Of a stretch of 64,000 bases of DNA, positions 34,085-46,164 are shown in pieces. The stretch spans positions 1 to 64,000 of the forward strand of contig JAIXWQ010000010.1 of NCBI GenBank assembly GCA_027491195.1, given 5' to 3'. The notes under the pieces were generated by a model that ran no database searches, was not told the DNA's origin, and saw nothing but the letters and a program-made list of their open reading frames with translations. This stretch comes from Cytophagaceae bacterium. GTDB taxonomy: Bacteria; Bacteroidota; Bacteroidia; Cytophagales; Spirosomataceae. The translations under genes and the position numbers were made by a program. The stretch's first letter is position 1, and the number at the start of each line of letters is the position of its first letter.

Positions 34085-34130
34085 TTAATAAAAAGTGTGA
34101 TTAAAGATAGTAATTATTCGGTAAATTTAG

Positions 34131-34165
34131 ACAGTGGGCAGTGGGCAGTGGACAGTAGGCAGTCC
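34131..34165. repeat. Heptad array A (ACAGTGG/GCAGTGG units)
   Basis: Five consecutive 7-bp units: ACAGTGG, GCAGTGG, GCAGTGG, ACAGTAG, GCAGTCC. It lies in the 189-bp gap between divergent M28 and DUF4197 genes, ahead of array B. Confidence 0.85.
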
Positions 34166-34180
34166 GGAGAGAAAATTTAG

Positions 34181-34264
34181 CATTCACCATTTACCATTCA
34201 CCATTATCTCTACTCTATACTCTCTTATCTCTAATCTATTCTTTGTGCTTTATGCTTTATTCTT
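34181..34264. repeat. Heptad array B (twelve phased 7-bp units of changing sequence)
   Basis: Twelve units without phase break: CATTCAC, CATTTAC, CATTCAC, CATTATC, TCTACTC, TATACTC, TCTTATC, TCTAATC, TATTCTT, TGTGCTT, TATGCTT, TATTCTT. The sequence drifts but the 7-bp period and a pyrimidine-rich pattern hold. The last four units recur at 38416, and the middle units recur, reversed, inside menD. Confidence 0.9.
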
Positions 34265-34273
34265 TAAAATAAA

Positions 34274-34990
34274 ATGAAAAAACTACTACTACTTTTAACG
34301 CTTTGTTCAATAACCGCTCAAGCTCAAAACATCCAAGGACTCCTCAACAAAGCCACTAAAATCATTTCAACTGGTAGCACCTCTCTAAGTTCAGATGACA
34401 TTGCGAATGGTTTAAAAGAGGCATTAACCACCGGAGCAGAAAAGGGTTGCTCGAATCTTGCAAAACCGGATGGATTCTTTAAAAATGCCGCTTTGAAAAT
34501 CCTGATGCCACCCGAAGCCGCCAAAGTCGAAAGCACTCTCAGAAGCGTTGGATTAAACCAATTTGCAGATGATTTCATCCTAAGTATGAACCGGGCAGCA
34601 GAAGACGCATCGGCTACAGCAGCACCGATTTTCGTGAATGCCATCAAGCAAATGACGATTTCTGATGGTATCAATATCCTTCGCGGAGATGAAACGGCAG
34701 CTACAACTTACCTTCGCTCAAAAACGAGCACAGAATTAAAATCCAGCTTTAATCCCATCATTAAAAACTCCCTCGAAAAAGTCAATGCCACCAAATACTG
34801 GGAAAAGGCCATCACAGCTTATAATGCCATCCCATTTAGCAATAAAAAGATCAACCCAGATTTAAGTGCCTACGTAACCGAAAAGGCCATGGAAGGTATT
34901 TACAGCGAAATTGCAAAACAAGAAAAGGAAATTCGAGTTAATCCATTAGCCAGATCAAGCGATTTGTTGAAACGCGTTTTTCAGAAGTAA
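34274..34990 (+). CDS. Secreted DUF4197 protein
   Basis: 238 aa with signal peptide (MKKLLLLLTLCSITAQA). The remainder is mainly helical: GLKEALTTGAEKGCSNLAKPDGFFKNAALKILMPPEA and AATTYLRSKTSTEL are DUF4197 hallmarks. Function of the family is unknown; an extracytoplasmic location is expected. The gene is bracketed by heptad repeats in inverted orientation (array B ends 9 bp before the ATG; array C starts at the last base of the TAA stop). Confidence 0.85.
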   Translation: MKKLLLLLTLCSITAQAQNIQGLLNKATKIISTGSTSLSSDDIANGLKEALTTGAEKGCSNLAKPDGFFKNAALKILMPPEAAKVESTLRSVGLNQFADDFILSMNRAAEDASATAAPIFVNAIKQMTISDGINILRGDETAATTYLRSKTSTELKSSFNPIIKNSLEKVNATKYWEKAITAYNAIPFSNKKINPDLSAYVTEKAMEGIYSEIAKQEKEIRVNPLARSSDLLKRVFQK

Positions 34991-35017
34991 TGGTAAATGG
35001 TGAATGATAAATGGTGA
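34990..35017. repeat. Heptad array C (ATGGTAA/ATGGTGA), inverted relative to array B
   Basis: Four 7-bp units (ATGGTAA, ATGGTGA, ATGATAA, ATGGTGA). They are the reverse complement type of the CATTCAC/CATTTAC units at 34181. The first unit shares its first base with the DUF4197 stop codon. Confidence 0.88.
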
Positions 35018-35038
35018 ATGTGATGGCTAACATAGAGA

Positions 35039-38289: not shown

Positions 38290-38302
38290 AAACATAGATT
38301 AT

Positions 38303-38320
38303 AATGAATAAAGAATAAAG
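38303..38320. repeat. Heptad array D1 (AATGAAT/AAAGAAT)
   Basis: AATGAAT, AAAGAAT, AAAG: 7-bp phased units 13 bp behind the SlyD-like stop. They are the reverse-complement type of array D2 at 38416. Confidence 0.7.
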
Positions 38321-38371
38321 GTCGATTCGCCTACGGCGATGAGTATATGAAATGTTTTATTACTAAAATCA

Positions 38372-38406
38372 TCAAAAAAGGGATCGAAATTTGATCCCTT
38401 TTTTGA
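38372..38406. terminator. Strong bidirectional terminator
   Basis: Fourteen-bp stem (TCAAAAAAGGGATC/GATCCCTTTTTTGA) with a 7-nt loop between the convergent SlyD-like and dCMP deaminase genes; A and T runs serve both directions. Confidence 0.9.
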
Positions 38407-38415
38407 TTCCACCGT

Positions 38416-38443
38416 TATTCTTTATGCTTTATGCTCTATGCTT
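38416..38443. repeat. Heptad array D2 (TATTCTT/TATGCTT) reaching the dCMP deaminase stop
   Basis: TATTCTT, TATGCTT, TATGCTC, TATGCTT. The last T is the first base of the complementary TTA that encodes the TAA stop of the minus-strand deaminase gene. Units are identical in type to the end of array B. Confidence 0.88.
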
Positions 38444-44577: not shown

Positions 44578-46164
44578 ATGGCATTCCCAAAAGGCATCAT
44601 CGAACTAGTAGACTCTTTATACCAACAAGGTGTAAATGAGGCAGTTATATGCCCTGGATCCAGAAATGCTCCCTTAATGATTGCCTTAACTCGCCACGGC
44701 GGATTCAAGTGCTACTCCATTGCGGATGAACGTTCAGCAGGCTTTTTTGGCCTAGGAATAGCCCTAAAAACGGGTCGTCCAGTCATCCTTTGCTGCACCT
44801 CCGGTTCGGCGGGTTTAAACTTTGCTCCAGCCGTAGTGGAAGCCTTTTTCCAAGAAGTTCCCTTAATCGTCTTAACGGCAGATCGCCCGAAAGAATGGAT
44901 TGGACAATGGGATGGCCAAACCATTTACCAAGAAAACCTTTTCGGAAAGCACGCCAAGGCCTTTTATGATTTCGAAACGGATGATTGTACTCAAGCTCCA
45001 GTGACTGCATTAGCGGAGCCGAAAGGTCCGGTACAGATTAATGTGCCGATTAGTGAGCCGTTTTATCCCTCTCTAGGGGAGATTTTACCGAAAGCTGAAA
45101 GCAGAGAGTATAGAGTAGAGAGTAGAGAGTATAGAGTAGACTTTAGTTATTTCAATCAAGAAATCGCTTCAGCGCAGAAAATACTGGTGACAGTAGGTCA
45201 AATGGAAGACAATTCGATCTTCGAAACGTTGAAAGCCTATGGAATTCCTGTCATAGGGGATGCCACGTCGAATTGCGGAAGTACTATTTCTCATGATTTG
45301 CTGTTAGCAGACGAATCTAGGTGGCCTTCTCTGCAACCTGAATTACACATACATTTTGGTAAATCATTCGTTTCCAAGCGAATTAAGCAGTTTTTGCGCT
45401 CACACAAGCCAAAGCAATCTTGGCTCATTCATCCTAATCCCATCGGAAGACCGGATCCCTTCTTGTGTTTAAGCCACGTAGTTAACACGAGCGCTGAAAA
45501 CTTTTTAGCAGGCGTAAACTGGACTAAGAAAAACTGGACAGCATGGAATATCGCTATCCAAGAAAAGCAATCAGCCTTTTTTGCCGAAAAAAATTGGACA
45601 GAAATCCATATTTACCAAGCGATCACCGAAGCCATTGAAAAACAAGAGGCAGAAGTGCATGTGGCTAATTCATTGGCTGTGAGGTACATAAATTGGACTT
45701 TGGCAAAATTCAATAAAACAGAAGTTTTTTCAAACCGGGGTACATCAGGAATTGATGGTTGCTTGAGCACGGCAGTTGGAGCTGCTCAAAAAACAGACAA
45801 ATTATGTATTTCCTTGATCGGTGATGTGGCCTTTCAATATGACAGGAATGCACTTTGGAACAAATACATACCAGATAATTTACGCATCATTGTCTTCAAT
45901 AACGGGGGTGGGGGTATTTTCCGAAATCTAGAAGGTGCAAAAGACCTCCCAGAACTAGATGAATTCATGGAAACGCAGCAAGGTTTTACAGCCGAGAATA
46001 CGGCAAAGGATGCGCATATCAGCTATTTCTCAGCAAAGAATGAGAAGGAATTAGATCTGAATGCCTTTTTCAACAATAAAGGACCAGCATTATTAGAAAT
46101 TCACACGAATTCCATCGAAAATGCGGCCGAATTGAAAAAGTATATGGCCTTATTTAAGGCTTGA
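44578..46164 (+). CDS. menD: Menaquinone biosynthesis protein MenD (with repeat-derived insert)
   Basis: 528 aa; SEPHCHC synthase, thiamine-diphosphate dependent, first committed step to menaquinone. N-terminal PYR domain (CPGSRNAPLMIALTRHGGFKCYSIADERSAGFFGLGIAL), TDRPKEW, and PP domain with GDVAFQYDRNAL and NNGGGGIF. The start at 44578 (MAFPKGI) is chosen because the earlier ATG lies in the rpoD terminator. Residues 174-187 read ESREYRVESREYRV, two 21-bp copies (45097-45138) of the heptad repeat, placed between the PYR and central domains. The family does not normally have this segment. The 3' end overlaps the convergent TPR gene by 15 bp. Confidence 0.93.
   Translation: MAFPKGIIELVDSLYQQGVNEAVICPGSRNAPLMIALTRHGGFKCYSIADERSAGFFGLGIALKTGRPVILCCTSGSAGLNFAPAVVEAFFQEVPLIVLTADRPKEWIGQWDGQTIYQENLFGKHAKAFYDFETDDCTQAPVTALAEPKGPVQINVPISEPFYPSLGEILPKAESREYRVESREYRVDFSYFNQEIASAQKILVTVGQMEDNSIFETLKAYGIPVIGDATSNCGSTISHDLLLADESRWPSLQPELHIHFGKSFVSKRIKQFLRSHKPKQSWLIHPNPIGRPDPFLCLSHVVNTSAENFLAGVNWTKKNWTAWNIAIQEKQSAFFAEKNWTEIHIYQAITEAIEKQEAEVHVANSLAVRYINWTLAKFNKTEVFSNRGTSGIDGCLSTAVGAAQKTDKLCISLIGDVAFQYDRNALWNKYIPDNLRIIVFNNGGGGIFRNLEGAKDLPELDEFMETQQGFTAENTAKDAHISYFSAKNEKELDLNAFFNNKGPALLEIHTNSIENAAELKKYMALFKA
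45097..45138 (+). repeat. Heptad repeat inside menD (two 21-bp units)
   Basis: Two 21-bp copies differing at two positions, each three heptads of the AGAGAGT/ATAGAGT type. The 17-bp string AGAGAGTATAGAGTAGA occurs twice here, and its reverse complement occurs exactly at 34209-34225 in array B. Twenty-one bp keeps the reading frame. Confidence 0.92.

Follow-up and report, generated by a model that had tools for sequence, protein, structure and literature searches.

The heptad array of menD and other repeats in the window

The stretch of DNA analysed here, referred to as the window, is 64 kb long and carries at 44578..46164 (+ strand) a gene for a protein of 528 aa. This product contains the Pfam domains TPP_enzyme_N (residues 10-115) and TPP_enzyme_M_2 (204-356), and its top PDB sequence matches were MenD chains, e.g. 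2x7j_A, identifying the gene as menD. It is host to an in-frame heptad array of the AGAGAGT/ATAGAGT family at 45090..45140 (+), corresponding to residues ~172-188 in the interdomain linker. An earlier note on this DNA had described a repeat at 45097-45138, which falls within this array, and that repeat is real: GAAAGCAGAGAGTATAGAGTAGAGAGTAGAGAGTATAGAGTA encodes ESREYRVESREYRV, residues 174-187 of MenD. Tandem Repeats Finder detected period 7 at 45103-45140 (score 62) and a period-7 segment scan gave a score of 24 across 45090-45138. A 17-bp reverse-complement match between the menD array and an intergenic array, reported in the same note, was also recovered and proved to extend over 19 bp (45103-45121 versus 34207-34225), the longest in the window. 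One such match in 64 kb is weak evidence alone, and it is the genome-wide count of the AGAGAGT family given below that is decisive.

The intergenic partner belongs to a cluster of heptad families at 34128-35020, lying upstream of a DUF4197 gene (34274-34990) and with an AATGGTG array at the 3' end of that gene. Tandem Repeats Finder and the period-7 scan identified arrays of the CAGTGGG family at 34132..34163 (+) and of the AATGGTG/AAATGGT family at 34175..34205 (-), both intergenic. These are followed at 34207..34266 (-) by an intergenic array of AGAGAGT-like and then AAAGCAC/AAAGCAT/AAAGAAT units, containing the 19-bp reverse-complement match to menD, and at 34989..35020 (+) by the AATGGTG array, placed with Tandem Repeats Finder and Pfam. 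A composite element without assigned strand is present at 38292..38442, consisting of AAAG heptads, the palindrome TCGCCTACGGCGA, a terminator-like hairpin and inverted AAAG heptads. It was delimited by the period-7 scan (array at 38415-38442) and by matches to a heptads-plus-palindrome model at 38292-38357 (+), one of the training sequences of that model, and at 38354-38441 (-).

From its sequence, a perfect AGAGAGT array contains TAG in each forward frame within 21 bp. Among 31 intergenic or edge arrays of at least 35 bp, 6 of 93 frames were open in the orientation found in menD, compared with 52 of 93 in the opposite orientation. For the menD array the sole open frame is the coding one, where TAT stands in place of TAG, or CAG in the related genome G009. 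In an AlphaFold2 model of MenD (30 sequences, mean pLDDT 79) the sole segment of at least three residues below 50 comprised residues 164-184. Retention of the array in menD is attributed to disorder of this linker together with the presence of TAT or CAG where perfect AGAGAGT units would give an in-frame TAG. We propose that the array in MenD is a tolerated spacer with no role of its own beyond that.

Heptad repeats across the Aquirufa genome

The window derives from an Aquirufa genome of 2.49 Mb in 14 contigs (G000), of which 1.004 Mb was scanned for periodicity, namely the window and 47 stretches of 20 kb, a non-random sample with several stretches near known arrays. At a score of at least 11 there were 91 arrays at period 7, 75 at period 14 and 39 at period 21, with 0-7 at every other period from 2 to 22 and none at period 7 after shuffling. 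At a score of at least 14 the numbers were 53 at period 7 versus 0-2 at non-multiples of 7. The strict 7-bp period was shared by several unit families (20 were counted in the 1.004 Mb), the commonest being AAAGCAT, AAAGAAT, ACTCTCT (equivalent to AGAGAGT), ACTAGCG, ACTCTAT (equivalent to ATAGAGT) and AAATGGT. When G000 was searched with the AGAGAGT-family 15-mer TAGAGAGTAGAGAGT, allowing up to two mismatches, 173 matches (93+80) were obtained versus 2 (1+1) for the reversed control.

Placement of the arrays relative to 895 genes called with a simple codon model (92.6% coding) indicated that 75 of 91 were intergenic, 10 overlapped gene 3' ends and 6 were called within genes. One of these six calls (L074) was a chance low-complexity match rather than a true array, and one array called intergenic (L072) in fact lies in the gene for a conserved protein and encodes its signal peptide, giving six true in-gene arrays in this sample. 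The arrays were polarized, 73 of 85 being directed away from the nearest gene boundary (Fisher 1e-11), and this boundary was mostly a gene 3' end (66/85). The order of neighbouring arrays was '+-' in 23 cases, '++' in 6, '--' in 3 and '-+' in none. Two contigs, C11 and C12, terminate within perfect AGAGAGT arrays, and the terminal bases of C6 and the initial ones of C8 read as each other's reverse complement, with heptads. Further short dispersed motifs around CGGACT/GACTAAGTC were seen close to arrays at L076:15560-15640 and in similar intergenic stretches.

A palindrome was present within the next 27 nt in 23 of 50 intergenic AAAG arrays versus 2 in shuffles, with arms that varied between copies, and in 18 of the 23 it lay at an identical 6-nt offset. 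Arrays in this count were not chosen on palindrome arms; covariation of the arms is biased, since the sequences used for it were chosen for exact arms. Inverted AAAG pairs 42-151 bp apart were found in the order '+-' 19 times (one array counted twice) and never as '-+'. The heptads-plus-palindrome model gave 61 matches in 1.004 Mb at E<=0.01, a figure that includes 11 training sequences and several matches without a palindrome. The layout of the dispersed composite element was AAAG heptads, a GGAATC-like motif, a palindrome of varying arms, a terminator-like hairpin and inverted heptads. The menD array of G000 has no palindrome, hairpin, inverted-pair feature or GGAATC-like motif, and a fixed or variable context absent from menD accompanied 28 of the 50 AAAG arrays (23 with and 27 without a palindrome).

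Perfect hairpins of at least 12 bp occurred within 60 bp upstream of 9 of 85 arrays versus 3 of 781 control gene ends. Three of the nine resemble intrinsic terminators, and in several others the left arm is C-terminal coding sequence of the gene (anmK, an amino-acid permease, P-II). At L083:16940-17057 (the anmK 3' end), L189:17825-17905, L088:9310-9381 and L180:7634-7690 perfect hairpins directly precede arrays, with a left arm that is or overlaps the 3' coding end. Such hairpins give the impression of an inverted copy of the gene end, and together with the inverted pairs they are suggestive of synthesis by fold-back or of an element resembling a REPIN. A crude motif screen, made without a profile on 40% of the genome, yielded nothing convincing as a RAYT-like or reverse-transcriptase protein.

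Orthologous sites in related genomes

MenD was located in 35 of 38 Aquirufa genomes. Thirty-two MenD sequences were aligned, two of them from Flavobacteriales; the MenDs of G002, G004, G005, G016 and G031 were without loci, and L002-L007 and L010 were omitted as presumed copies of other loci (verified for L007/L013 only). Heptads were present in the linker of the eight closest MenDs, that of G000 included (period-7 score 12-29), and the other 24, from 22 Aquirufa and the two Flavobacteriales, had no array (score 2-6). The peptide ESREYRV is therefore not conserved across MenD independently of repeat-like DNA, as it would be if it were ancestral protein sequence. The earlier note had expected such an alignment to reveal absence of the array or copy numbers changing in steps of seven residues; absence was indeed seen in 24 of 32, but length steps of seven residues were not. 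Array-bearing linkers measured 26, 31, 27, 33, 31, 28, 31 and 31 residues and those without arrays 25-35 residues. Being of ordinary length, the array-bearing linkers look as though other sequence had been replaced by the arrays rather than added to. Similarly, the assertion that the insert in menD is exactly 42 bp did not hold, as no clean empty site was found among the 32 aligned MenDs.

The linker was of AGAGAGT type in G000, G023, G012 and G009, of AAAGTTC type in G029, G027 and G025, and of AAAGCAC type in G001. In a MenD tree built without the linker (leaving out L008, L009 and L034), G009 of the AGAG type and G025 of the AAAG type were sisters (support 100/99), as were G023 and G027 (91/91), which also differ in family. 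AAAG-type menD linkers have in common a near-identical block of non-repeat DNA that includes a palindrome, the palindrome preceding the heptads, though the genes differ. Divergence between the G029 and G025 menD genes was 7-9% just downstream of the linker, compared with 13-25% upstream and 20-28% further downstream. From these sequence comparisons, linker alleles appear to have been exchanged between species as short tracts at menD. The common block with its palindrome in particular indicates that family differences at menD reflect at least in part allele exchange and not new spread.

The family found at menD agreed with the genome-wide majority of AGAG or AAAGTTC matches in seven of eight genomes (G027, 15 to 13), and in six of eight with two ties when AAAGCAC was added to AAAGTTC. 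In the first comparison the menD gene's own matches were subtracted for six genomes and not for G023, the G001 menD being matched by neither pattern; in the counts including AAAGCAC they were subtracted for none. When the eight genomes were ranked by AGAG versus AAAG counts the menD types separated, an outcome of 1 in 70 permutations whether or not AAAGCAC was counted.

Heptads were found in frame inside six unrelated genes, encoding MenD, an esterase, an AMP-binding enzyme, WecB, a sorting-domain protein and a protein with a signal peptide, where they occupy linkers, loops, the sorting domain or the signal peptide. The wecB product is by similarity a UDP-GlcNAc 2-epimerase. Its linker DNA measured 12+21n bp in 23 of 28 genomes (12, 33, 54, 75, 96 or 180 bp), a series of 0, 7, 14, 21, 28 and 56 extra residues; two of the 30 loci (L216 and L219) were without an anchor. 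The five misfits were 27 bp in G010, G014 and G020, with heptad-like ACGTCCA, 102 bp in G011 and 114 bp in G007. Thus 13 of 18 linkers longer than 12 bp had a multiple of seven extra residues, although several are no longer heptad-like and the species are non-independent. Some of the shortest linkers already resemble remnants of heptads (GCGACTAGCGAC in G016), a pattern compatible with slippage in place and no mobility. WecB residues 198-204 had pLDDT below 50, as did four other segments. The loop of the AMP-binding enzyme was 63, 63, 63, 84 and 105 bp long in the close group, with two heptad families, and 60-63 bp without heptads in five other genomes; that of G017 was masked by N, 18 of 29 loci were without an anchor and a 30th, L255, was not included. 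The proposed rule that only multiples of 21 bp are retained therefore describes wecB and the AMP-binding enzyme and not menD itself.

In the esterase (BD-FAE), AAAGTTC-like heptads lie between the signal peptide and the domain in eight close genomes; no heptads were seen in nine others, at almost equal length, and L096 and L108 fell short of the linker. The heptad-bearing esterase ortholog of G023 (L094) contains one in-frame TAG. In the signal-peptide gene the heptads were of ATTCACC type in G000, G001, G012 and G023, of AAAGTTC type in G017 and G037 and mixed in G009, and none were apparent by eye in 14 more distant loci. In the G000 protein with a Por secretion sorting domain (residues 551-613) the array falls at residues 583-593, inside the domain. 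The 3' end of anmK carries AGAG and/or AAAG heptads in the close group and, at the corresponding position in seven other species, heptads resembling GAGTGAA, GAGGTGA or AGACGTT, with none visible by eye in the remaining loci of the 30 compared. These data demonstrate that orthologous sites keep period 7 while the unit sequence turns over.

Across 222 genomes of the family, AAAGTTC arrays were essentially confined to the group of Aquirufa that includes G000, other genera giving 0-4 matches. The reversed control of this pattern, itself a heptad repeat, gave 29 matches in G112, 8 in G183 and 5 in G110, all of the same family and of other genera, suggesting that heptads of different sequence may exist in other genera. 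In small samples of other Aquirufa there were 0-3 arrays per 60-100 kb versus 91 per 1,004 kb in G000.

The dispersed heptad repeat in menD is thus confirmed and is more general than the earlier note had recognized. The broader claim in that note, that the repeats move or spread into genes with selection keeping the frame, agrees with the in-frame dispersed array in menD, with the five further genes in the 1.0 Mb sample and with the lengths that change by 21 bp in wecB and in the AMP-binding enzyme. It is not supported at menD itself, where neither 7-residue steps nor a 42-bp empty site were found, and movement was not directly seen.

Origin of the arrays and comparison with known repeats

We consider it probable that the menD segment is an in-gene member of a genome-wide population of heptads that are seeded or copied between loci, undergo slippage and unit turnover, and are kept in flexible sites. 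Arrays would be seeded and copied between loci by template switching at short homologies or by conversion, and those of AAAG type may also spread by forming the ends of a dispersed inverted-repeat element. Slippage would change array length, and unit families would turn over while the period stays. Within genes, arrays would survive solely in flexible sites and where they introduce neither stops nor frameshifts. On this view, the linker that joins the PYR and central domains of MenD would have acquired an array on the branch leading to one Aquirufa clade, linker alleles later being swapped between species as short tracts. No pair of empty and filled sites differing only by the array was found at menD, so that insertion as such is what we infer there.

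A purely local origin, in which a chance 7-bp duplication is expanded by slippage at each site, with a polymerase favouring a 7-nt step and no movement, would account for the strict 7-bp period with varied units and for the 12+21n lengths and seeds such as GCGACTAGCGAC in wecB. It also accords with an earlier proposal, in the portion of the report considered, that 7 nt is the length in contact with the polymerase (PMC4679880). We nevertheless regard it as unlikely, for a few families recur at many loci (173 AGAGAGT matches versus 2 for the control) and 23 of 50 AAAG arrays share a palindrome versus 2 in shuffles, 18 at the 6-nt offset; common families and contexts across loci are not expected from independent slippage. 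Equally unlikely in our estimation is a mobile-element origin, in which a transposase acting in trans would move a REPIN- or MITE-like element with the arrays at its tips and the array in menD would be a decayed or partial copy. The inverted AAAG pairs with a spacing of 42-151 bp (19 in the order '+-', with one array entering the count twice, and none in the opposite order) and the 61 model matches in 1.004 Mb (11 of them training sequences and several without a palindrome) are consistent with such an element, and Rickettsia palindromic elements, as outlined in the part of the source used, provide a precedent for such DNA entering genes in frame (PMC10969869). The menD array of G000, however, has neither the palindrome nor the GGAATC-like motif, and no RAYT-like protein was evident in the crude motif screen without a profile of 40% of the genome, a weak argument. 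That ESREYRV is an old functional MenD motif, the DNA repeat being a by-product of protein selection, is very improbable: an ESREYRV-like peptide occurs in four of the eight closest MenDs, but the other four have unrelated peptides (KFKVQSSK, KHKAQSTK) from other heptads at the same place, identical DNA families also lie between genes, and the segment is of low confidence in the AlphaFold2 model. This reading was rejected, as was that of an assembly or sequencing artefact, to which we give almost no credence even with two contigs (C11 and C12) ending inside perfect arrays. Independent genomes agree on the menD heptads, which recur in separate assemblies including A. antheringensis 30S-ANTBAC (L007, identical to L013) and the single-contig G012.

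A more speculative idea, which we think improbable, is that an activity in Aquirufa lays down 7-nt repeats largely regardless of unit and away from gene boundaries, sometimes right after fold-back of a gene's own 3' end into a perfect hairpin, and so rewrites the same sites, protein linkers among them. If this were true, enzyme linkers would evolve in 21-bp quanta through its action.

Inverted termini, a cognate transposase and target-site duplication are features of REPIN/RAYT systems or MITEs. Inverted termini were observed for the AAAG arrays (19 '+-', 0 '-+') and not for the menD array. The Aquirufa arrays correspond to dispersed heptanucleotide (STRR-like) repeats in that a 7-nt tandem is present in many copies, mostly intergenic. 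Among the titles and abstract openings listed in a literature search, none reported heptads in Aquirufa or linkers stepping by 21 bp, which is no proof of absence in print. The comparisons that follow rest on parts of the cited reports. Among 5-11-nt repeats, heptanucleotides are described as the commonest class in the majority of bacterial genomes surveyed (PMC4679880). TAACTGA direct repeats occur in Beggiatoaceae, Cyanobacteria and some Bacteroidetes (PMC4679880). In the main genome of that study most of them directly precede start codons, and the authors anticipate that they could be tolerated between subunits or at the ends of proteins. Like these, the Aquirufa repeats are heptads with a stop-containing orientation; unlike this single unit near start codons, the Aquirufa arrays are nearest mostly to 3' ends (66/85), and TAACTGA was not among the 20 unit families counted in 1.004 Mb of G000. 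Rickettsia palindromic elements (RPEs) are ~150 bp long, encode a conserved peptide and lie in protein genes (PMC10969869); dispersed repeat DNA is likewise kept in frame within unrelated Aquirufa genes, whereas the menD array is a 7-bp tandem, not a ~150-bp element, with a peptide that differs by family. Bacillus tandem repeats of constant size and variable sequence (PMC8161180), from another organism, appear similar to the arrays in constant length and variable unit.

The heptameric repeats GGGGA(C/T)T of Nostoc and GGGAATC of Xanthomonas are dispersed, mostly intergenic and under-represented in coding regions, according to the sections of the report consulted (PMC4692102). Neither unit was among the 20 families counted in 1.004 Mb of G000. 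The Aquirufa arrays are similar to them in being 7-nt units, dispersed and mostly intergenic, and on this partial comparison differ in having several coexisting families, a unit that differs at orthologous sites, in-frame arrays in conserved enzymes and 21-bp steps. With its constant period, several families, different units at orthologous sites and the natural length series of wecB, Aquirufa offers a tractable case in which the origin and spread of repeats become testable and in which repeat DNA is seen turning into linker and signal-peptide sequence.
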